A stretch of DNA of 41,246 nt from contig DASYTI010000173.1 in the NCBI GenBank assembly GCA_036002485.1, positions 1 to 41,246 of the forward strand. The letters run 5' to 3'. The translations under genes and the position numbers were made by a program. This DNA is from Candidatus Methylomirabilota bacterium (GTDB lineage Bacteria; Methylomirabilota; Methylomirabilia; Rokubacteriales; CSP1-6). Numbering within the stretch: position 1 is the stretch's first letter; every line of letters begins with the position of its first letter. The notes beneath the pieces are model-generated. The model was not told where the DNA came from, made no database searches, and saw nothing but the letters and a program-made list of their open reading frames with translations. Positions 3,301 through 40,754 of the stretch are shown in pieces.

Positions 3301-5019
3301 CTATTGCTGGGACCAGGCGCCGCGCAGGAGGAGCACCCCCTGAGGCGTGCCGGGCGGCGGATTGGTGTTGAAGAGCGTGTCGTAGCTCCAGATCCGCTGA
3401 GGTGGGGTGTAGTACTGGGTGCCGCCGGAGCCGCAGCACTGCCACTGCCCGACGGCTTGGTGGCTATGCCAGAGGTCTACGATGGAGCCGCGGTAGGTGA
3501 ACGCGTTGCCGTTCCAGTCCTCGAGGAAGCGGATATCGTTCTCGAGCTGGCCATTGCCCTGGTTGAGCACGGACTCCGCGGAGGGCCCCAGCGCGAAGCC
3601 CGCGTTCACTGTGGTCGCCGTGGCCTGCCGAGTATCGGTCGCGAGATTGCCCTTGCTGTCGCTATTGTTCGGCGCCCAGTTGTTCGAGAGCACGGTGATG
3701 GCATCGGCCAGCACCGCCGCGGGCACCTTGGCCACCGTGTTGTAGTCGCCCCTGATGTACATCGGGTTCTCGCTCACCACCGTGAGTCCCTGTGAGGGCA
3801 ACTGTGAGCCATTGATCAGCCTCACCGCAGCTCCCGGCGTGCCCGTGGTCGCCACGTAGAGCACCCCGTTGGCGGGGGCGGCGCTCGCCGAGCGCAGGAG
3901 CCCGATGTTGACATCGGTTACGCTCATGGTCCGCTGCTCGCGCATGTCATAGAAGGTGTTGGTGGTAATCACGCCCGCAGGCAGGGTGACGGGACTACCG
4001 CCCATGTCGGTGGCCCCCCCGTTGACGATGCGCAGGCCGGACTTGGAATACATCTTGGCTGCCGCCAGGTCCGGGGCATCGCCGACGTTGGCGACCTCGA
4101 TGAGCTGGTGCGAGACCACGTCAGGACTGGCCGGATTGTAGAAGAGCTGGGGGATGGGCGGGATGATCTGGCCCACGCCCATGGCGTTGTCGCGGACTGT
4201 GCCGCCGAAGGTGGCCATGGCCCGCGCCTGCCAGGCGGCCGCCGTCCAGCCGCTGCCGAACCCGGGCTGGAGCGCGCTGTCGAAGTTGAGCGGCTGATAG
4301 GTGCCGCCGGAGTCCTTGATGCGCGGGTTGTTGCCCCAGGGGATCGAGGTATCGCGCTTGATGCGGCGGAAGATGCTGCCGGCTGTCGTGATGGTCGAGT
4401 CGAAGTCGAGCGAGGAGCCGGCGCCCACATAGATATTGCTGTTCGAGTGCACGCGGCCATTGAAGGTCATGTTCGGGCCCGGCGCGATCTCGAGGTCGAC
4501 GCCGGCGCCGTAGAAGACGCCGAACTGGAAGAGCGGCACCTGGACCTGACGGAGAATCTGGGTCAGGCGGGCGCGGGTGCCATTGTCGCCTCGGACCTCT
4601 GAGGTGATGAGGTAGTCTGTGACCTGGCCGCTGAAGCCCGCGTAGGGTCCGGTCGTGAACGTGGTCGCGTAGGAGTTGGGAGGCGTTGGCACGACCCAGG
4701 CCACCGAATAGGTGACGAAGGAGAGCTTGGGATCGCTGAGGGCGGGCGCCGTGATGCCGGCGAGCTGGGTGGCACTCGGGGTCTGGGTGCTGGCGAGGAT
4801 GGTCCGCAGCGCGACCACACCAGACTCGATGCCGCCCTCGGCCGCGTAGAAGGCCGCGCTGTACTGCTTCCAGCTGCCGGAGATCTGCATCTCGGTCATG
4901 CCCATGGCGACCAGGGTGAAGCCCAGAATGGAGCAGAGCAGCATGACGATCATGGCCAGGGGCAGGGCCGAGCCGCGCTCGGACCGGCACGCGACACCAA
5001 ATCCTTTGCGAATATTCAT
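3301..5019 (-). CDS. Large PilX-type pilus assembly protein with long C-terminal domain
   Basis: This 572-residue protein is about three times the length of classical PilX. The leader MNIRKGFGVACRSERG is followed by a hydrophobic segment (SALPLAMIVMLLCSILGFTL) without Glu at position 5, as is usual for PilX. The signature AAFYAAEGGIESGV at about 54-67 is typical of the PilX N-terminal domain. The region from about 180 contains GPNMTFNGRVHSNSNIYVG and a further run of alternating Gly/Asn strands, which suggests a beta-helix or DUF4900-like exported domain. Two adjacent cysteines (QWQCCGSGG) occur near the end. GAGGAGGA precedes ATG 5019. It lies 19 bases after the PilW-like gene. The likely role is a tip-associated minor pilin with an adhesive head; that last point is inference. 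Confidence 0.8.
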   Translation of the reverse strand: MNIRKGFGVACRSERGSALPLAMIVMLLCSILGFTLVAMGMTEMQISGSWKQYSAAFYAAEGGIESGVVALRTILASTQTPSATQLAGITAPALSDPKLSFVTYSVAWVVPTPPNSYATTFTTGPYAGFSGQVTDYLITSEVRGDNGTRARLTQILRQVQVPLFQFGVFYGAGVDLEIAPGPNMTFNGRVHSNSNIYVGAGSSLDFDSTITTAGSIFRRIKRDTSIPWGNNPRIKDSGGTYQPLNFDSALQPGFGSGWTAAAWQARAMATFGGTVRDNAMGVGQIIPPIPQLFYNPASPDVVSHQLIEVANVGDAPDLAAAKMYSKSGLRIVNGGATDMGGSPVTLPAGVITTNTFYDMREQRTMSVTDVNIGLLRSASAAPANGVLYVATTGTPGAAVRLINGSQLPSQGLTVVSENPMYIRGDYNTVAKVPAAVLADAITVLSNNWAPNNSDSKGNLATDTRQATATTVNAGFALGPSAESVLNQGNGQLENDIRFLEDWNGNAFTYRGSIVDLWHSHQAVGQWQCCGSGGTQYYTPPQRIWSYDTLFNTNPPPGTPQGVLLLRGAWSQQ

Positions 5020-10477: not shown

Positions 10478-10530
10478 GGCCAGGTACGGATGATTTCATG
10501 CACATCACCCCAATCCGTCACGGAGTCTTG

Positions 10531-13500
10531 ATGGCTCGCGCCAAGGCTGGGAGCAGCGTCGCTCAACGCGGTGATTCGCGAGACGATCAGCGGTCCGCGC
10601 GCGCCCGGCCTCGTGGAGGAGCGAAGGTCAAGGGCCGCGTGCGACTCAGCCCGGCCGCGAAGCCCTGCCTCCGCGTGCTCCTCATCCAGTCCGACCCCGT
10701 GGCCACCCGCTCGCTCCTGGCTGCCTTCGGGCGGAGCCGGACTCCCGTCGTCGAGGTCCAGCAGGTGAGCAAGCTCGCCGAGGCTATCGAGCGCCTGGGG
10801 GGAGGAGACATCGAAGTCGCCCTGCTGGACCTGGGACTGCCCGAGATGTCGGAGGCCGATGCCCTCCACCAGATCCACGCGGCTGACCCCGGCGTGACCC
10901 TCATCGGCCTGGCCAGGCGTGACGATCCGAGCCTTTCCCGCCGCGCCTATCACGAGGGCGCCGACGATTGCCGGGTGATGAGCCGGGGCTGGGCAGGCCG
11001 GCTCGCCGTCGCTTTGCCCCACATCGTCGAGCGACACCGTATCCTGGCTGGGCTCCGCCTCCAGAGCGAGCAGCATACGGCCATCGTGGAAGGCTCGCTC
11101 CAGGGCATCGTCATCCACGAGGGTGGCGTGATCCGCTACGCCAACCCATCCATCGCGCGCCTCCTCGGCCACGAGAGCCCCGCCGACCTGCTCGGCCAGA
11201 GCGTGTTGGCCTTGGTGGCGCCGCATGACCGCGAGCGGGTCCTCGCCATGGCGCGGGCGCGCGAGCGGGGCGAGAGCGTCCCCGCCCGCTACGAGTTTCA
11301 GGCCTCGCGATCCGATGCCACCCTGGTGTCGCTCGAGTGCCTCGTCACCCCCATCACGTGGCGAGGCCGCTCGGCCATGGTGGCCGTGATGCTGGACATC
11401 ACGGAGCGCAAGCGAACGGAAAGCGCCATGCGCGCCCTCGCCCACCGAGCGGCATGGCGCGCGGAGAACCTCGCCGTGCTCGCGCGGGTGTCCAGCGTCA
11501 TCGCCGCCGCCACGGACAGCCAGCGCGTCTTCGAAGCGGTCGCGGGGGCGGCCGTTTCCCTTCTGGGCGCGAAGGTCGCGGGGGTGCTCGTCGACGATCC
11601 CGCCACCAAGGCCCTTCGCGTCGGGCAACACTACACGAGCGGCCCCGCGGCGTCGCCCGTGATGGTCGAGATCGCCGAGGTTCCCTACGGCCGGGGCGTG
11701 GCGGCGGTCGTGTACGACTCACGCCGCCCCATCTTCGTCGAAGATATCGACCACGAGCCGCGGTGGCTCAACCCCCACCTCGTCCAGGAGGCGGGTCTCC
11801 ACGCCTACGCGGGGCTCCCGTTGATCGCGCGGGATCGAGTGATCGGCGTGCTGTCCATCTTCTTCGGCGAGCATCGGAAGTTCGCCGACGAGGAGCGGGA
11901 GCTGATGGGCTTCCTCGCGAGCCAGGCCGCCGTGGCCATCGACAACGCGTGCCTCCTCCAGGAGACGGAGCGGCGGCGGCGCACCGCCGAGGCCCACGCC
12001 GCCGTCGGCCGCCTGCTCGGCCAGTCGCTCGACCTCGCCGACGTCTCGGATCGCATCGTGGAGAGCGTCCGCACCCTCCTCGGCGTCGCGAACGCGGCCC
12101 TCTTTCGCCTGCGGCCGGAGACGGAGGATCTCGAGGCGCTGAGCCTCCGCGGCGACCACGGCGTGGTCGAGGGCAGCCGGCTCGTTTACCCGCTCGGCCA
12201 GGGCGCCATCGGCCTCGCCGCGCGCTCACGCCGCCCCGTGGTCACCTCGGATTTGCTGGCCGATCCGCGGATACCCCAGCCCCCCGACCATCAGGCGCGG
12301 ATGAAGCGGGCGGGATTCGGGGCGGTGGTGGCGGTACCGCTCGTCGTCCAGGACCGGGTCATCGGCGCCCTGTCGCTTGGCGATTCCGTGGGCCGGCAAT
12401 TCACGGATGAGGAAGTGCAGGTCGTCGAGGCCTTTGCGGACCGGGCGGCCATCGCGCTGGAGACGGCGCGGCTCTACCAGGAGGTCCGGGATGCGCGCGA
12501 CTTCCTCCAGTCGATCGCGGAAAGCTCGGCGGACGCCATCGTCACCACCGACGTCCACGGCCGGATCACGTACTGGAGCCCGGGAGCCGAGGAGATGTTC
12601 GGCTACGCGGCGGGAGAGGCGTTTGGCCGCACGGCCGCCGAATTCTATGCCGGCGGTCCGGAGGAAGCGCGCGCCATCATGGCCCGCCTGCTCGCCGAAG
12701 GCCGGCTGCGGGACTACGAGGCGGTCGTCCGCGGCAAAGATGGTCGCACGCTGGCGGGCTCCGCCTCCATCTCCCTGCTCCGGGACGCGAGCGGAGCGCT
12801 CACGGGGACGGTCGGGGTGCTCAAGGACGTCACGGGGCGCCGGATGCTCGAGGAGAGCCTGCGCCAGTCACAGAAGATGGAGGCGGTGGGTCGCCTCGCC
12901 GGCGGCATCGCGCACGACTTCAACAACCTCATGACCGTCGTGCTCGGGCGGAGCGACCTCTTGCTCAGGCGGCTCCGTCCCGAGGACCCCATGCGCCGCG
13001 ACATCGAGCTCTTCCGGAAGACGGCCATGCGGGCCACCGAGCTGACCCGACAGCTCCTGGCTTTCAGCCGCAAGCAGGTGCTGCAGCCCAAGGTTCTCGA
13101 CCTCAATGCCGTCGTGGAGAACATGGAATCCATGCTGCGCCGTCTGATCGGCGAGGACGTCGCCCTGCGCACCGACCTCGCGCCGGCCCTCGGGCGAGTC
13201 AAGGCCGATCCGGGCCAGATCGAGCAGGTCATCGTGAACCTGGTCGTGAATGCCCGCGACGCGATGCCGCAGGGGGGCAAGCTCACCATCGAGACCACCG
13301 AGGTCGAGCTGACGGAAGGCGATGCCCAGCAGCACGCGGGGCTGCGCCCCGGCCCCACCGTGGTGCTCGCGGTGTCCGATACCGGCACCGGCATGGACGA
13401 AGCGACCCGGGCGCGGATCTTCGAGCCGTTCTTCACCACCAAGGAGCAGGGCAAGGGGACGGGACTCGGCCTCAGCACCGTGTACGGCATCGTCCAGCAG

Positions 13501-14001
13501 AGCGACGGCGGCATCTCTGTCCACAGTGCCGCCGGCAGGGGGACGACCTTCAGGATCTACCTCCCGCGTGTCGAGGAGAGCGTGGAGATCGCCCCCACCC
13601 CCGAAGCTCCCATGCGAGCAGGGGGTGGAACGGAGACCGTCCTGCTCGTGGAAGACGAGGACGAGCTGCGGGCCGTCGTGCTGGAGACCCTCCAGTTGTA
13701 CGGCTACACGGTGCTCGAGGCGGGTCACGGTGGCGAGGCCATGCTGATGGCCGAGCGCTACCCGGGCCCCATCCATCTCCTCCTCACCGACGTGGTCATG
13801 CCGACGATGAGCGGGGCGGATCTCGCGCGCCGGCTCGCCGCCGTCCGGCTCGAGATGAAGGTCCTGTTCGTCTCGGGCTACACCGACGACGCCATCGTCC
13901 ACCACGGCGTGCTCGAGCCGGGCACGGCCTTTCTCGAGAAGCCCTTCAACCCCGAGCAGCTCGTGCGTCGCGTTCGCGAGGTGCTGAGCGGCCGAGACTA
14001 G
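10531..14001 (+). CDS. Hybrid sensor histidine kinase (REC-PAS-GAF-GAF-PAS-HisKA-HATPase-REC)
   Basis: This is a 1156-residue, apparently soluble signalling protein. Domains in order: an N-terminal receiver at about 45-165 with LLDLGLPEM (Asp100); PAS at about 175-300; GAF at about 315-475 (VSSVIAAATDSQRVFEAV); a second GAF at about 485-645; PAS at about 650-775 (ESSADAIVTTDVHGRITYWS); HisKA with GRLAGGIAHDFNNLM (His795). HATPase_c follows with NLVVNARDAM, DTGTGM and GTGLGLS. The C-terminal receiver has LLLTDVVMP (Asp1087). The HDFNN box places it with kinases whose receiver feeds back on itself. No membrane helix is seen, so it senses a cytoplasmic cue. ATG 10531 has GGAG six bases upstream; an ATG at 10498 adds 11 residues. 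No separate response regulator is adjacent. The 3' end overlaps the convergent LLM gene by four bases. Confidence 0.92.
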   Translation: MARAKAGSSVAQRGDSRDDQRSARARPRGGAKVKGRVRLSPAAKPCLRVLLIQSDPVATRSLLAAFGRSRTPVVEVQQVSKLAEAIERLGGGDIEVALLDLGLPEMSEADALHQIHAADPGVTLIGLARRDDPSLSRRAYHEGADDCRVMSRGWAGRLAVALPHIVERHRILAGLRLQSEQHTAIVEGSLQGIVIHEGGVIRYANPSIARLLGHESPADLLGQSVLALVAPHDRERVLAMARARERGESVPARYEFQASRSDATLVSLECLVTPITWRGRSAMVAVMLDITERKRTESAMRALAHRAAWRAENLAVLARVSSVIAAATDSQRVFEAVAGAAVSLLGAKVAGVLVDDPATKALRVGQHYTSGPAASPVMVEIAEVPYGRGVAAVVYDSRRPIFVEDIDHEPRWLNPHLVQEAGLHAYAGLPLIARDRVIGVLSIFFGEHRKFADEERELMGFLASQAAVAIDNACLLQETERRRRTAEAHAAVGRLLGQSLDLADVSDRIVESVRTLLGVANAALFRLRPETEDLEALSLRGDHGVVEGSRLVYPLGQGAIGLAARSRRPVVTSDLLADPRIPQPPDHQARMKRAGFGAVVAVPLVVQDRVIGALSLGDSVGRQFTDEEVQVVEAFADRAAIALETARLYQEVRDARDFLQSIAESSADAIVTTDVHGRITYWSPGAEEMFGYAAGEAFGRTAAEFYAGGPEEARAIMARLLAEGRLRDYEAVVRGKDGRTLAGSASISLLRDASGALTGTVGVLKDVTGRRMLEESLRQSQKMEAVGRLAGGIAHDFNNLMTVVLGRSDLLLRRLRPEDPMRRDIELFRKTAMRATELTRQLLAFSRKQVLQPKVLDLNAVVENMESMLRRLIGEDVALRTDLAPALGRVKADPGQIEQVIVNLVVNARDAMPQGGKLTIETTEVELTEGDAQQHAGLRPGPTVVLAVSDTGTGMDEATRARIFEPFFTTKEQGKGTGLGLSTVYGIVQQSDGGISVHSAAGRGTTFRIYLPRVEESVEIAPTPEAPMRAGGGTETVLLVEDEDELRAVVLETLQLYGYTVLEAGHGGEAMLMAERYPGPIHLLLTDVVMPTMSGADLARRLAAVRLEMKVLFVSGYTDDAIVHHGVLEPGTAFLEKPFNPEQLVRRVREVLSGRD

Positions 14002-25404: not shown

Positions 25405-27012
25405 TTACTTGCTCGCGGCGAGGAAGGTCTTGGCCTGCTTGAGCTCGGGACGCTCCGAGTCGGCGGGGCGGGCCAGAGCCAGGAGCCTGGTGTAGAAGGT
25501 CCGCGCCTTGGCGCGGTCGCCGGAGAGCTCGGCGGCTCGCGCCACCCCGGCGATGGTCTTGAAGCGGTTCGGCGCGCGCTCGAGCGAGGCCTCGTACTCG
25601 CGCACGGCGGCCCCCGGCTGGCCGAGCTCGATCAGGAGATCTCCCAGGAGCTCGCGCGCGGTGGCGATCGGCCCCGGCGTGATGTTGTGCTTCTCGGTGG
25701 CGTCCTCGGTCTCGGCGGCCGAGCGCGCGAGCCCAAGGGCCGCCTCGTTCTGCCCTTCGGCGCGCGCCACCCAGGCCGCGGCGGCCCGGCGCTGGATCTC
25801 GACCTGCTCGGCCCAGTAGGGATCTTTCAAGGCGTCCCGGAGGGTGGCGAGCTTCTCCACGTCCGCGCGCGCCTGCGCGGCCTGACCGCTGCGGGCGGCT
25901 CCGATCGCGCGGGCGAAGTAGATCATGGACTCGGTGTGGGGGAAGCGGTTCGGCCGAGGCTCGATGGCCGCGGCCTCCGCCCAGCGTCCTCGCTCCATGG
26001 TCCAGCGCGCCTCGATGGCGGCCATGGCAAAGTGCGCGGTGGGCCGCCCCGAATCGTACTGCTTGGCCGCGAGGTCGCTCACGATGCCGCGCGCCTCGTC
26101 GACGACGCGCTTGGCCTCGGCGTCCTGCGCCTGCTGCAGGTAGGCGTACACGAGGTAATCGAGCGCGTGCATGCGGTCATCGGGATTGCCGCGGGCCTTC
26201 TCCGCCGCGGCGGCGGCGATGTTACCCTGGATGGTCTCGGGCCACATGCCGAGGAGCACGTAGGTGTGCGACGGCATGTGGAGAGCGTGCGGCACCGAGG
26301 GCGCGAACTTCGCATAGCGCCCCGCCGCCGGCACGGCCCGCTGCGCGAGCGAGGGGTAGTCGTAGGCGTGGATGATGTAGTGCGCGGCGCCGGGATGATC
26401 CGGCTGCACGGCAAAGATCTTCTCGGCGATCTCCGCGGATCGCTTCTGCTTGGCGTAGGTGCGATCGTGGGGATCGGCGGTGGCCTGAAGGGCGAGGGCG
26501 TAGAAGGCCTGCGCCTCCCGATCTTGAGGATAGCGGGTGAACACCAGCTCCATCGCCTTCTCGTAGGCGGCGGCGCGCGTGCGGTGATCGAGGCGATCCG
26601 AATCCTTGAAGAAGGCGTCCGCGGCCGCGATGTAGTCTCGCTCGCGCGGCGTGGGGTTTCCGACCGTCTTGGCCTTCTCCATCGCTTCGACGCCTCGCTT
26701 GAGGGCGGCGGGGGCCGGAGGAGACCATATCTGGTACCACTGGCTCATGGCGATGCCCCAGTAGGCGATGGCGCAGTCCGGGTCGGCCTGGGTCACGGCG
26801 GTGAAGGCCCTCGCGGACTCCAGGTACCAGAAGGAGTGCAAGATCGCCACCGCCTGATCGAAAGCCTTCTGCACCGCCGGCTTGCACGAGACCGGGAAGC
26901 TCACCTTTCCGATCCGGTCCGACGGGTCGATCCCTTGCTGTGACCATGTCGTGGGCACCGTCAGCGCCAGGACGGCCACGATCGCGACAAGCCCCACCGC
27001 AGTCTTTTTCAT
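25405..27012 (-). CDS. Secreted TPR-repeat protein
   Basis: This 535-residue protein has a signal peptide (MKKTAVGLVAIVAVLALTVPTTWSQ). An array of helical repeats follows. Recognisable helices include AVAILHSFWYLESARAFTAV, ADPDCAIAYWGIAMS and QPDHPGAAHYIIHAYDYP. The C-terminal TPR units are LLGDLLIELGQPGAAVREYE, ASLERAPNRFKTIAG and RAKARTFYTRLLALA. The HAYDYP/HMPSHTYVLLG region is conserved in a common but uncharacterised secreted TPR family of soil bacteria. It probably acts as a protein-protein scaffold in the periplasm. AAGGAGG nine bases before ATG 27012 is a strong ribosome-binding site. The two binding-protein genes follow directly. Confidence 0.82.
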   Translation of the reverse strand: MKKTAVGLVAIVAVLALTVPTTWSQQGIDPSDRIGKVSFPVSCKPAVQKAFDQAVAILHSFWYLESARAFTAVTQADPDCAIAYWGIAMSQWYQIWSPPAPAALKRGVEAMEKAKTVGNPTPRERDYIAAADAFFKDSDRLDHRTRAAAYEKAMELVFTRYPQDREAQAFYALALQATADPHDRTYAKQKRSAEIAEKIFAVQPDHPGAAHYIIHAYDYPSLAQRAVPAAGRYAKFAPSVPHALHMPSHTYVLLGMWPETIQGNIAAAAAEKARGNPDDRMHALDYLVYAYLQQAQDAEAKRVVDEARGIVSDLAAKQYDSGRPTAHFAMAAIEARWTMERGRWAEAAAIEPRPNRFPHTESMIYFARAIGAARSGQAAQARADVEKLATLRDALKDPYWAEQVEIQRRAAAAWVARAEGQNEAALGLARSAAETEDATEKHNITPGPIATARELLGDLLIELGQPGAAVREYEASLERAPNRFKTIAGVARAAELSGDRAKARTFYTRLLALARPADSERPELKQAKTFLAASK

Positions 27013-36505: not shown

Positions 36506-39500
36506 ATGACCACCACGACTCACGTATTCTCGCTGGACGCCAAGTACACCCAGGAGGAAGGGCGCGTCTTCCTCTCGGGCATCCAGGCGCTGGTCAGGCT
36601 GCCCCTGGACCAGCATCGTGCCGACCAACGCCGGGGGCTCCGCACCGCCACCTTCATCTCCGGCTACCGCGGCTCGCCGCTCGGCGGCTTCGACCAGACG
36701 CTCGAGCGCGAGCGGAAGCTCCTGGACGCGCATCACGTGGTGTTCTCTTCCGGCCTGAATGAAGACCTCGGCGCGACGGCCATCTTCGGCAGCCAGATGG
36801 CCGGGCTCTTCCCGCGCCCGAAGTACGACGGCGTGCTCGGGATGTGGTACGGCAAGGCCCCGGGCGTCGACCGGACGGGGGACGCCTTCAAGCATGCCAA
36901 CTACGCCGGCGTCGGCAAGAACGGCGGCGTGCTCGCTCTGGCCGGCGACGACCCGGTGTCGAAGTCCTCCACACTGCCCAGCGCCTCCGAGGTGGCGCTC
37001 TACGACGCGCTCATGCCGACCATCTTCCCGGGGAGCGCCCAGGAGATCCTCGACCTCGGCCTGCACGGCTTCATGCTCTCGCGGACCTCCGGCCTCTGGG
37101 TCGGGATGAAGATCGTGACCAATGTCGCCGACGAGGTGACCACGGCCGAGGTCGGTCCCTCTCGGGTGAGCCCCATCATCCCTGTGGTGGAGCTCGACGG
37201 CCGGCCCTTCGAGCACCACATCAACGTCAATCTCATCCCGCCCTACGGTCTCGACATGGAGCGCACGCTCTACCATGCCCGCCTGGAGCTCGCCCGCCGC
37301 TACGCGTGGGAGAACAAGCTGAACCGGATCGCCGTGCCCACGCCGGATGCGTGGCTCGGCATCATGACCTCGGGCAAGACCTACTACGACGTCCGCCAGG
37401 CGCTCCGCGAGCTCGGGCTCGACGACGAGGCGCTGCGCCACCACGGTATCCGGATTCTCAAGATGGCCATGCTCTTCCCCCTGGAGCCTCGGATCGTCCG
37501 GGAGTTCGCCCGCGGGCTCGAGGAGATCCTCGTCGTCGAGGAGAAGCGCGCGTTCATCGAGATGTTCGCCAAGGATGTGCTCTACGGTATGCCCGACCGC
37601 CCGCGCGTGGTGGGCAAGCAGGACGAAGAGGAGCGGATGCTCCTGCCCATCGTCGGTGAGCTCGACCCCGACACCATCGCGCGCGCCATCGCGAAGCGGC
37701 TCGCCCGGAAGATGCGGGTCGAATCGGCCGAGGCGCGCGTCCGTCACCTGGACGAGCTCAAGGCCAGGCCGAAATTGCTGACCCTGGCCCGCACGGCCTA
37801 CTTCTGCTCGGGCTGCCCCCACAATCGCTCCACCGTCGTGCCCGAGGGCGCGGTGGCCGCGGCGGGCATCGGCTGCCACGGCATGGCCATGGGCATGGAC
37901 CGCGGCATCATCGGCGTCACCCACATGGGGGCCGAGGGCGCGCAGTGGGTGGGCATCGCGCCCTTCACCGAGACGCCGCATCTCTTCCAGAACATCGGCG
38001 ACGGTACCCTCTTTCACTCGGGCAGCCTGGCCATCAACTACGCCATCGCCGCCGGCGTCAACATCACCTACAAGATTCTCTACAACTCCGCGGTGGCCAT
38101 GACGGGCGGCCAGGACGCCGTGGGCGCCTTGCCGATTCCCGCCCTGACCCGGCGGCTGGAAGCCGACGGCGTCAAGCGCATCATCATCACCACGGATCAT
38201 GTGGAGAACTACAAGAGCGTGTCCCTCGCCGGCCACTGCGAGGTGTGGCACCGTGACCGGCTCCTCGAGGCCCAGTCGGTGCTGGCGGCCACCCCGGGGG
38301 TGACCGCCCTCATCCACGACCAGCAGTGTGCGGCCGAGAAGCGCCGGCTCCGCAAGCGCGGCAAGCAGGCGGAGCCTCAGATGCGCGTCTTCATCAACGA
38401 GGCCGTCTGCGAGGGGTGCGGGGACTGTGGCCGGAAGTCCAACTGTCTCTCCGTCCAGCCCGTCCAGACGGAGTTCGGCCGCAAGACCCAGATCCACCAG
38501 TCCTCCTGCAACAAGGACTACTCGTGCTTGCTCGGCGATTGCCCCTCCTTCCTCACCATCGAGCCCATCGGTGAGCCGAAGAAGCGGCAGAAGCGTCTGA
38601 CGCCTCTGGAGGCCGAGCTCCCCGAGCCCGAGCTCCGCGTGCCGCGCGACGGCTTCGCCCTGCACATGATGGGCATCGGCGGCACGGGCGTGGTCACCGT
38701 CAACCAGATTCTGGGCACGGCGGCCATGCTCGACGGCCGCCACGTGCGTGGCCTCGATCAGACGGGGCTCAGTCAGAAGGGCGGGCCGGTCGTGTCTGAC
38801 CTCCGGCTCGCCTCCTCGCCGATAGAGATCTCCAACAAAGTCTCGGCGGGCGGCGCCGATCTCTATCTCGGCTTTGATCTCCTCGTCGCCACTGACCCCG
38901 TCAATCTCGACAAGGCGGAGGCCGGGCGCACCGTCGCCGTGGTCTCGACCAGCCAGATTCCCACGGGCCAGATGGTCGCGGATACGAGCGTCCAGTTCCC
39001 GGAGCTAGCCAGCGCCCTCATGAGCCTCGATCGCGTCACCCGCAAGGACGCCAATGTCTATGTCGACGCCCTGGGCATGGCCGAGGCCCTCTTCAACGAC
39101 CACATGGCGGCCAATTTCATCCTGGTGGGTGCGGCGTATCAGGCAGGGGCGCTGCCCATCTCGGCCGGCTCCGTCGAGGCCGCCATCCGTCTCAACGGCG
39201 TGAGCGTGGACATGAATCTCCTCGCCTTCCGCTGGGGCCGCATGGCCGTGTTGGACGCCCGGCGCGTCGAGTCGGCGGTCCAGACGGCTACCGGCAAGGT
39301 CGAGACGAGGCGGGCACTCTCCGCCGAGGCCGCGGCGCTCGTGGAGGCTTCGGGGGCACAGGGGGAGCTCCGACGGCTCCTCGAGGTACGCGTGCCCGAG
39401 CTGATCGCGTACCAGGATGCCGCCTATGCCAGGTCCTACGTGGATTTCATCACCCGCGTGGCGCGGGAAGAGGCTCGAAAGACGCCCGGCCGTACCGGGC

Positions 39501-39982
39501 TCTCTGAGTCGGTGGCCCGCCACCTCTTCAAGCTCATGGCCTACAAGGACGAGTACGAGGTGGCGCGACTCCATCTCTCAGCCGCCCTCGAGGCCGAGCT
39601 CTCCGCGCGTTTTGGGCAGGAGATCCGCTACTACTGGCACCTGCACCCGCCGATCTTCCGCGCGCTGGGTCTCACGAAGAAGATCCGGCTCGGCTCCTGG
39701 TTCCGCCCCGTGTTCGGTGCCCTCCGGGCCATGCGGGGGCTCCGGGGCACCGCCTTCGATCCCTTCGGCTACGCGCGCGTGCGCCGCGAGGAGCGGGCGT
39801 TGGTAGACGAATACCGCGCCCTCGTCGTGCGAGTGCTCGAGACGCTCGGCCCCAATTCCCACGACGCGGCGGTGGCCCTGGCCGACCTGCCGGACATGAT
39901 CCGCGGCTACGAGGAGATCAAGCTCGGCAATATCACGCAGTTCCGCCGGCGAGTGGCGGAGCTTTCGGCCCAGCTCGGTTGA
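36506..39982 (+). CDS. Indolepyruvate ferredoxin oxidoreductase family protein, fused
   Basis: This is a 1158-residue multidomain oxidoreductase. An alpha-type pyrimidine/TPP-partner domain fills about 1-420 (SGYRGSPLGGFDQTL, KTYYDVRQALRELGLDDE). Cys434 and Cys437 (YFCSGCPHNRST) follow. The TPP-binding domain lies at about 450-620 with NIGDGTLFHSGSLAINYAI (Asp499). The Fe-S segment has Cys635, 638, 641 and 647 (CEGCGDCGRKSNC) and Cys668, 674 and 679. The gamma-type domain spans about 710-920 (MGIGGTGVVTVNQILGTAAM, GLSQKGGPVVSDLRL). The final 230 residues match the extra C-terminal domain (DUF6537 type) found in fused IORs. It oxidatively decarboxylates arylpyruvates from aromatic amino acids to aryl-CoA, reducing ferredoxin. 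The promoter lies at 36431. A long antisense open frame here is an artefact. Confidence 0.93.
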   Translation: MTTTTHVFSLDAKYTQEEGRVFLSGIQALVRLPLDQHRADQRRGLRTATFISGYRGSPLGGFDQTLERERKLLDAHHVVFSSGLNEDLGATAIFGSQMAGLFPRPKYDGVLGMWYGKAPGVDRTGDAFKHANYAGVGKNGGVLALAGDDPVSKSSTLPSASEVALYDALMPTIFPGSAQEILDLGLHGFMLSRTSGLWVGMKIVTNVADEVTTAEVGPSRVSPIIPVVELDGRPFEHHINVNLIPPYGLDMERTLYHARLELARRYAWENKLNRIAVPTPDAWLGIMTSGKTYYDVRQALRELGLDDEALRHHGIRILKMAMLFPLEPRIVREFARGLEEILVVEEKRAFIEMFAKDVLYGMPDRPRVVGKQDEEERMLLPIVGELDPDTIARAIAKRLARKMRVESAEARVRHLDELKARPKLLTLARTAYFCSGCPHNRSTVVPEGAVAAAGIGCHGMAMGMDRGIIGVTHMGAEGAQWVGIAPFTETPHLFQNIGDGTLFHSGSLAINYAIAAGVNITYKILYNSAVAMTGGQDAVGALPIPALTRRLEADGVKRIIITTDHVENYKSVSLAGHCEVWHRDRLLEAQSVLAATPGVTALIHDQQCAAEKRRLRKRGKQAEPQMRVFINEAVCEGCGDCGRKSNCLSVQPVQTEFGRKTQIHQSSCNKDYSCLLGDCPSFLTIEPIGEPKKRQKRLTPLEAELPEPELRVPRDGFALHMMGIGGTGVVTVNQILGTAAMLDGRHVRGLDQTGLSQKGGPVVSDLRLASSPIEISNKVSAGGADLYLGFDLLVATDPVNLDKAEAGRTVAVVSTSQIPTGQMVADTSVQFPELASALMSLDRVTRKDANVYVDALGMAEALFNDHMAANFILVGAAYQAGALPISAGSVEAAIRLNGVSVDMNLLAFRWGRMAVLDARRVESAVQTATGKVETRRALSAEAAALVEASGAQGELRRLLEVRVPELIAYQDAAYARSYVDFITRVAREEARKTPGRTGLSESVARHLFKLMAYKDEYEVARLHLSAALEAELSARFGQEIRYYWHLHPPIFRALGLTKKIRLGSWFRPVFGALRAMRGLRGTAFDPFGYARVRREERALVDEYRALVVRVLETLGPNSHDAAVALADLPDMIRGYEEIKLGNITQFRRRVAELSAQLG

Positions 39983-40007
39983 GGCCGGCGGGCTCAAGAG
40001 GAAGACG

Positions 40008-40754
40008 GTGACCGAGCGCGAAGAGGAGATGCCGTCGCCGGCGGCGCCCATCGAGGCTCCCGGGGGGCGGGGACGGGGGCTCACCCTGGGGCTGCTGATC
40101 GGCCTCGTGGTGTGCGCGATCCTGGCCGTGAGCGTGGCGCTCTATGCTCAGAAGCAGATCGGCTCGCTCGAGCAGCAGCGGGACGCCGCGCAGCGCGACA
40201 ATACGCGGCTCATGGCGTCGAGCGCGGCGGCGGCCGCCAATGCCTCGAAGGTCGAGCAGGCCCTCGCGGCGGCACGCGCCGAGCGCGACGAGCTCGCGCA
40301 GATGGTCGTGGCGATTCGCCAGAACCCCAATACGGGGAAAGACATCAAGGACCCCAAGCTGCCACCCTCGATCGACGGCAAGCGACGCGAGGCGCTCCTG
40401 GCGGCTTTCTCCCTCAAGGAGGAGAAGGTGCCCTTCAAGTGGGGCGGCCGGACGAAAGAGGAGGGGCTCGATTCCGCCGGCTTCGCCGCCCTCGCCTTGG
40501 CCCAGGTGGGCGCGCTCGAGAAGGTCGAGGGGGCCACGGCCAAGATCCTGCAGGCGCAGCTCGCCCTTTCGACCGAGGGCGAGCCCCAGCCGGGCGATCT
40601 TCTTTTCTTCGACGGCGGCAATGTCCTGCTGTATCTCGGCGGCGACAGTGCCGTCGGCATGCTGCCCGAGGGTCCGGTGACGAAGAACGGCGTCATCAAG
40701 GGCAAGGGGATCGGCTTCAAGTACCTCGGCTTCGGTTCCGTAAAGTACGACTAG
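40008..40754 (+). CDS. Membrane-anchored NlpC/P60-like protein with substituted catalytic residues
   Basis: This 248-residue protein starts at GTG 40008, 25 bases after the IOR stop; AAGAGGAAGACG provides the ribosome-binding site. One membrane helix lies at about 26-46 (LTLGLLIGLVVCAILAVSVALYA). A coiled coil follows at about 50-103 (QIGSLEQQRDAAQRDNTRLM). The C-terminal domain has the outline of NlpC/P60: VPFKWGGRTKEEGLDSAGFAALAL (145-163) and PGDLLFFDGGNVLLYLGG (195-212). In active enzymes the DCSG motif carries the nucleophile Cys and HVGIYLG carries the His. Here Ser156 replaces the Cys and Asn205 replaces the His, so it is probably a pseudo-enzyme or carries a changed activity. The domain faces the periplasm if the helix is a signal anchor. 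I am confident of the fold, less of the role. Confidence 0.75.
   Translation: MTEREEEMPSPAAPIEAPGGRGRGLTLGLLIGLVVCAILAVSVALYAQKQIGSLEQQRDAAQRDNTRLMASSAAAAANASKVEQALAAARAERDELAQMVVAIRQNPNTGKDIKDPKLPPSIDGKRREALLAAFSLKEEKVPFKWGGRTKEEGLDSAGFAALALAQVGALEKVEGATAKILQAQLALSTEGEPQPGDLLFFDGGNVLLYLGGDSAVGMLPEGPVTKNGVIKGKGIGFKYLGFGSVKYD

Follow-up and report, generated by a model that had tools for sequence, protein, structure and literature searches.

The DNA analysed here, referred to as the window, is a stretch of 41,246 nucleotides from a Candidatus Methylomirabilota bacterium of the order Rokubacteriales (contig DASYTI010000173.1). Close to its end a gene on the forward strand (40008..40754, stop codon included) codes for a protein of 248 residues from a GTG start codon. 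This gene, which we call the pseudo-NlpC/P60 gene, is supported by orthologues and by dN/dS ratios. Its upstream neighbour on the same strand (36506..39982, 1158 residues) has Pfam matches to POR and DUF6537, a domain make-up which we take to be that of an indolepyruvate ferredoxin oxidoreductase (IOR). The GTG codon sits 25 bp past the stop of the IOR-type gene, and between the two a possible ribosome-binding site, AAGAGGAAG, was picked out by eye (39996..40004, forward strand). The downstream neighbour converges on the pseudo-NlpC/P60 gene (40781..41239, reverse strand); it lies at the contig end and codes for 152 residues with an alkyl-sulfatase dimerisation domain (PF14863, E 1.2e-33).

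The encoded protein begins with a short N-terminal tail which closes with GGRGRG, directly ahead of a membrane helix at approximately residues 25-47 (40080..40148, forward strand, as for all features of this protein). The highest hydropathy over 19 residues is 2.89, reached at residues 27-45. A long helix with a heptad pattern, coiled-coil-like, follows at approximately residues 48-105 (40149..40322), and the excess of hydrophobic residues at its a and d positions was matched by only 11 of 5000 shuffles. Residues 119-248 (40362..40751) form an NlpC/P60-type domain, as indicated by PF00877, by alignment and by the predicted fold. The Pfam profile matches residues 141-215 (E 2.9e-7, 30.9 bits against a cut-off of 23), and a profile-profile comparison of the domain with 16 canonical domains by hhalign gave a probability of 94.8 and an E of 5.2e-8. 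Nothing is encoded beyond this C-terminal domain, and no pentapeptide repeats come after it. By the positive-inside rule the protein would have its N-terminus inside and its C-terminus outside. The original prediction had read the membrane helix and the coiled coil as an anchored form, and the hydropathy and the shuffle test agree with it. The motifs that it had quoted (WGG, LDSAGF, PGDLLFF, YLGG) are all present in the 248-residue frame, and the interval 40473-40634, where it had placed the substituted domain, extends exactly from the first base of the Ser156 codon to the last base of that of Tyr209. An identity of the N-terminal half as an Rz-spanin or as an FtsL-like protein was considered and rejected, the matches being as weak as a membrane helix with a coiled coil would give.

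Rokubacteria are known chiefly from metagenomes. The pseudo-NlpC/P60 gene is present in four of the five genomes of its genus, the window's own included, while the fifth genome is 78% complete; this corresponds to 4 of 57 genomes of the family and 4 of 95 of the phylum. At E <= 0.01, matches occur in 10 of the 95 phylum genomes. The four full-length members score 498-508 bits and are followed at a large distance by eight weak rows of 17-20 bits, seven of them on contigs with other PF00877 genes and the eighth on G052:C95. One orthologue, on QHSC01000082.1 (Candidatus Rokuibacteriota), is 87% identical. In each of the four member genomes, which are drafts of 96-99% estimated completeness, the gene is the sole PF00877 match at E <= 0.01. 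The family sample thus consists of four members from draft genomes, two of which are close to each other. Outside the phylum, 291 genomes of another phylum gave three weak matches, all with a Cys (DCSG or DCSA) and a His. Viral contigs searched with the profile of the members gave no match, and two weak matches from plasmids and seven from phages did not exceed 38% identity. A pattern search of the genome contigs returned one locus, but with two short patterns that would miss distant relatives. Other genera of the same Rokubacteria family have genes of the same Pfam family, several with lipoprotein-like starts as judged by eye. Three of these match the pseudo-NlpC/P60 protein, with 29-35% identity over part of the domain, but Cys, His and His are found at the catalytic positions in all 20 family loci that were read.

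The catalytic positions were assessed in two alignments. In the first, 35 PF00877 matches had been obtained from 99 genomes with the Pfam profile, and 30 loci were aligned, 26 from outside the genus and four from its members. The second comprised 35 NlpC domains from viral contigs which had been fetched by patterns including DCSG or GIYxG, so that the counts for the Cys, the Ser and the Tyr209 side are there partly given by construction; the Pfam-profile count of the 30 loci is independent of this choice of patterns. Ser156 (40473..40475) takes the place of the catalytic Cys, a residue found without exception in the 26 loci from outside the genus and in the 35 viral-contig domains; all four members have Ser there. 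Asn205 (40620..40622) replaces the catalytic His (25 of 26 loci outside the genus, with a gap in L031, and 35 of 35 viral-contig domains), and all members carry Asn. At the third catalytic position the members have Gly217 (40656..40658), where His (23 of 26) or Glu (3 of 26) is found outside the genus. This third position varies in active-looking domains too: among those listed for the 35 viral-contig domains there are 24 His, 4 Ala, 3 Glu, 1 Gly and 1 Asn. The replacement of Cys by Ser and of His by Asn, as originally proposed, is thus borne out, and a third substitution has to be added. The set Ser156, Asn205, Gly217, Phe143, Lys179 and Leu181 is common to all four members.

It had been pointed out that another Cys/His pair might occupy the active site, or that orthologues might have intact DCSG and HVG motifs. 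A relocated pair is impossible, since the protein contains no histidine at all and its single cysteine lies within the membrane helix, which is the same in all four members. The three orthologues found all carry Ser/Asn/Gly, and no orthologue with intact motifs was detected among the 5 genomes of the genus, the 57 of the family and the 95 of the phylum. A Cys to Ser exchange alone (C179S) is reported to inactivate the Trichomonas NlpC/P60 enzyme NlpC_A1 (PMC6299479), and about 1% of 2599 NlpC/P60 sequences are stated to be devoid of the Cys/His dyad (PMC2954226). With Ser, Asn and Gly in the catalytic columns of every member, it is well supported that the domain is non-catalytic.

The substitutions are not restricted to the catalytic residues. 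The report on the crystal structure of YkfC assigns a Tyr, a Trp, an Asp, two Ser and two His to the active site and to the pockets for gamma-D-Glu and L-Ala (PMC2954226). Phe143 (40434..40436) occupies the column of the conserved Tyr, Tyr226 in YkfC, which is Tyr in all 25 outside-genus loci that reach this column and in all 35 viral-contig domains; the four members have Phe. Ala157 (40476..40478), next to the former nucleophile, takes the position of the Ser that binds glutamate, and the members show Ala, Ala, Val and Ala where Ser is found in 25 of 26 loci outside the genus (Ala in L035) and in all 35 viral-contig domains. Lys179 and Leu181 replace Arg (33 of 35 viral-contig domains) and Thr/Ser/Ala (34 of 35), but these two columns adjoin a gap and are less certain. 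Trp145 and Asp155 are retained in all four members; the viral-contig domains have Trp in 32 and Asp before the Cys in 35 of 35 cases. Among Tyr226, Asp237 and Ser239 of YkfC (the conserved Tyr and the gamma-D-Glu contacts), whose counterparts are Phe143, Asp155 and Ala/Val157, only one in three is kept, and the equivalents of Tyr226, Ser239, Arg255 and Ser257 are all replaced. As three catalytic positions and pocket residues are altered, the loss covers catalysis and extends to substrate recognition. A binding role had been suggested from the conserved surroundings. These surroundings are indeed conserved, but the contacts to the peptidoglycan stem are mostly replaced, and so binding of stem peptides does not follow from them.

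Six pairwise comparisons of the four members (Nei-Gojobori, own script) gave a whole-gene dN/dS of 0.14-0.37. Values for the domain are 0.11-0.27, and residues 190-245 are under the strongest constraint (0.06-0.15), which includes two of the former catalytic positions. Segment borders are alignment columns, and short segments are noisy; in one pair of close members, for example, the membrane helix reaches 0.93. The domain ratio is below that of the whole gene in five of the six pairs, in one of them by 0.01 only, and 0.001 above it in the sixth. In the pairs G000-G001 and G000-G002 constraint on the domain as a whole does not exceed that on the gene, and it is the stalk that has the lower ratio. 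GC contents at the three codon positions are 0.71/0.46/0.90, compared to 0.68/0.45/0.91 for the IOR gene. From the dN/dS ratios and the codon-position GC, the frame at 40008-40754 is a real gene, and it is under purifying selection.

An AlphaFold2 model computed from an alignment of 37 rows has a mean pLDDT of 79.8 and a pTM of 0.52, with block pLDDT values of 71-94 over residues 121-248. A helix is predicted for residues 25-105. Ser156 opens a helix (156-166), Asn205 opens a strand (205-211), and Gly217 is located in another strand (214-219). The best Foldseek match was 8i2d (LytE), with an E of 1.1e-4 and a TM-score by target of 0.73. VIA-align was run against Foldseek's matches, and its best 36 rows, mostly NlpC/P60 by title, have Z 11.8-14.0 and rmsd 2.2-4.7 over 107-134 aligned residues; these include 7cfl (Z 14.0, rmsd 2.5, 114 aligned), 8i2d (Z 13.5, rmsd 2.7, 112 aligned) and RipD, 4jxb (Z 12.9, rmsd 2.8, 112 aligned). 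A prediction with only the window protein and one orthologue reached a mean pLDDT of 34.8 and gave no usable model. As this run was made without canonical homologues, the good model leans on its alignment. With this dependence, the structure prediction that had been proposed as a check recovers the NlpC/P60 fold with Z up to 14.0, and an NlpC/P60 fold, a membrane helix and a stalk are supported by prediction. The C40 DL-endopeptidases LytE, CwlO, MepS/Spr and SagA share with the pseudo-NlpC/P60 protein the fold (Z 12.1-13.7), the motifs WGG, PGDLLFF and YLG and the PF00877 match, but the latter has none of the catalytic Cys, the His, the third residue and the conserved Tyr, and its stem-peptide pocket is eroded.

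The position beside an IOR gene had been part of the original prediction, and this adjacency is real. In all four genomes with the gene, the IOR gene is followed by the pseudo-NlpC/P60 gene (the IOR gene of G001 being truncated where its contig stops), and a relative of the alkyl-sulfatase dimerisation protein is likewise encoded near each of the three orthologues. However, the adjacency appears to be genus-specific and suggests no functional link. An IOR was found in 51 of the 56 family genomes searched. Of the 27 IOR loci returned, 11 from outside the genus were examined by eye, and in none of these did a pseudo-NlpC/P60 gene adjoin the IOR gene. Because IOR is widespread and these loci are without the gene, we consider the adjacency a genus trait that has no evident functional meaning, and on the same grounds a functional link to IOR is not supported. 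The pseudo-NlpC/P60 gene seems to have entered the slot next to IOR in the ancestor of the genus. In the four loci with the most similar IOR (L130-L133, from four genomes of two related genera) the next gene is Cu/Zn superoxide dismutase-like. It has a lipoprotein-like start and was seen in the first ~550 bases past IOR; a PF00080 match was obtained in the one locus that was run. The same slot after IOR is thus occupied by a superoxide dismutase-like gene in related genera and by the pseudo-NlpC/P60 gene in the window's genus.

What the protein does has to be judged against several possibilities. Some papain-fold proteins are reported to carry serine in place of cysteine (PMC10318531), and the invariance of Ser156 and Asp155 in all four members would be compatible with an enzyme that uses Ser156 as nucleophile or has another new site. 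This is very unlikely: there is no histidine anywhere in the protein that could act as the base, Asn and Gly fill the other two catalytic positions, and the inactivation of a homologue by the Cys to Ser exchange (PMC6299479) also speaks against it. It is more unlikely still that the gene is decaying, or is a chance frame, even though all catalytic residues are changed and the gene was found in one genus only, one genome of which (the 78% complete one) does not have it. The frame is open in all four genomes with dN/dS ratios well below 1, the domain ratio is below that of the whole gene in nearly all pairs, the residue pattern is identical in the four members instead of being scattered, and the genomic place is the same each time.

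Division hydrolases and activators of the RipC/CwlO/PcsB type consist of a helical stalk and a C-terminal wall-hydrolase-type domain, and EnvC likewise. The pseudo-NlpC/P60 protein has this architecture too, and it could be a divisome regulator in which FtsEX moves the stalk and the dead domain switches on a real hydrolase. The layout corresponds to that of RipC-FtsEX as described in PMC12067865, the genome encodes an FtsX with an extracellular domain as well as an Amidase_3, and the N-terminal half has a weak FtsL-like match (18.6 bits against a cut-off of 42.45). We nevertheless regard this role as improbable. RipC is active, and a membrane helix seems to take the place of a cleaved signal here. 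The ftsEX genes are on contig C119, the pseudo-NlpC/P60 gene is on C173, although linkage is not required of every such regulator, and a search of the 95 phylum genomes turned the gene up in this genus alone. An M23 gene adjoins ftsEX, with genes for an S41 protease and then a polysaccharide deacetylase coming after it. It seems, therefore, that FtsEX is already supplied with a partner, and given this cluster elsewhere in the genome the pseudo-NlpC/P60 protein is less likely to be that partner. A role like that of RipD (Rv1566c) of Mycobacterium tuberculosis is possible, though less likely than not: the dead domain would still bind wall peptide or glycan and would link the inner membrane to the wall. 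RipD (PDB 4jxb/4lj1) also has an NlpC/P60 fold with replaced catalytic residues, Ala83-Ser132-Glu144 instead of Ser-Asn-Gly; it is reported to have no hydrolase activity (PMC12067865, PMC6628586) and to bind peptidoglycan (PMC12067865). The similar fold, the retention of the pocket Trp and Asp in all members and the membrane-anchored stalk, which would fit such a tether, argue for it. The replacement of the four YkfC contact residues argues against it, and so does the layout, as RipD has an N-terminal domain with C-terminal pentapeptide repeats, whereas here the domain closes the protein on a membrane helix and stalk.

As the catalytic residues are lost and this loss is kept by selection, the protein probably serves for docking or as a scaffold and not as an enzyme. 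The reading that we prefer, although we consider the chances about even, is that it is a membrane-anchored, non-catalytic NlpC/P60 relative, fixed in one genus of Rokubacteria, which serves mainly as a protein-docking surface in the envelope. The N-terminal helix would anchor it in the inner membrane, and the heptad helix would form a periplasmic stalk, probably as a dimer, which would end in an NlpC/P60 fold that no longer cuts. The former active-site cleft could then dock an envelope partner protein, possibly a wall hydrolase or synthase. A docking surface is proposed because the cleft is without the three catalytic residues and most of the stem-peptide contacts, and it is preferred over wall binding because the pocket is eroded while the surrounding residues 190-245 are the most conserved. 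The preference is a modest one: Trp145 and Asp155, two of the stem-peptide contacts, remain, which counts against docking and would suit peptidoglycan binding, and RipD demonstrates that dead domains can bind peptidoglycan. Orientation, dimer, docking role and partner are all inferred. The genomic context points to no partner, as the neighbours are metabolic genes, but the genome does encode further wall hydrolases that are candidates for a partner: an Amidase_3, seven M23 matches scoring above the threshold and the ftsE-ftsX-M23-S41 cluster. We further suggest, tentatively and with more doubt than conviction, that the genus gave up its NlpC/P60 endopeptidases and kept only the anchored pseudo-peptidase, with a cleft rebuilt for protein docking; it would then be a type of stalked adaptor in the envelope that has no described precedent in the superfamily.

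Inactive relatives of wall hydrolases are uncommon in the NlpC/P60 superfamily. Non-catalytic NlpC/P60 domains are already known, RipD being the only natural dead NlpC/P60 protein that was found described in the literature searched, and what is new here is an anchored and more eroded variant. That search, with subscription papers outside its coverage, returned no description of the present family; an inactive NlpC that it did bring up was an engineered mutant, and among the titles listed for Rokubacteria and peptidoglycan none concerned a protein of this sort. A natural loss of catalysis and of most substrate contacts under selection would separate the scaffold role of the fold from its role as an enzyme, and the protein marks a genus-specific envelope protein in Rokubacteria.

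A few further observations concern other regions. In G000:C119:4500-11500, genes for FtsE, FtsX, an M23 peptidase, an S41 protease and a divergent polysaccharide deacetylase occur in a row on one strand. In the window itself, a hybrid signalling protein of 1167 residues with GAF, PAS, HATPase_c and response-regulator domains is encoded at 10498-14001 on the forward strand. On the reverse strand, two frames of 572 and 535 residues (3301-5019 and 25405-27012) have no Pfam match at E 1e-10 and could be spurious high-GC frames.
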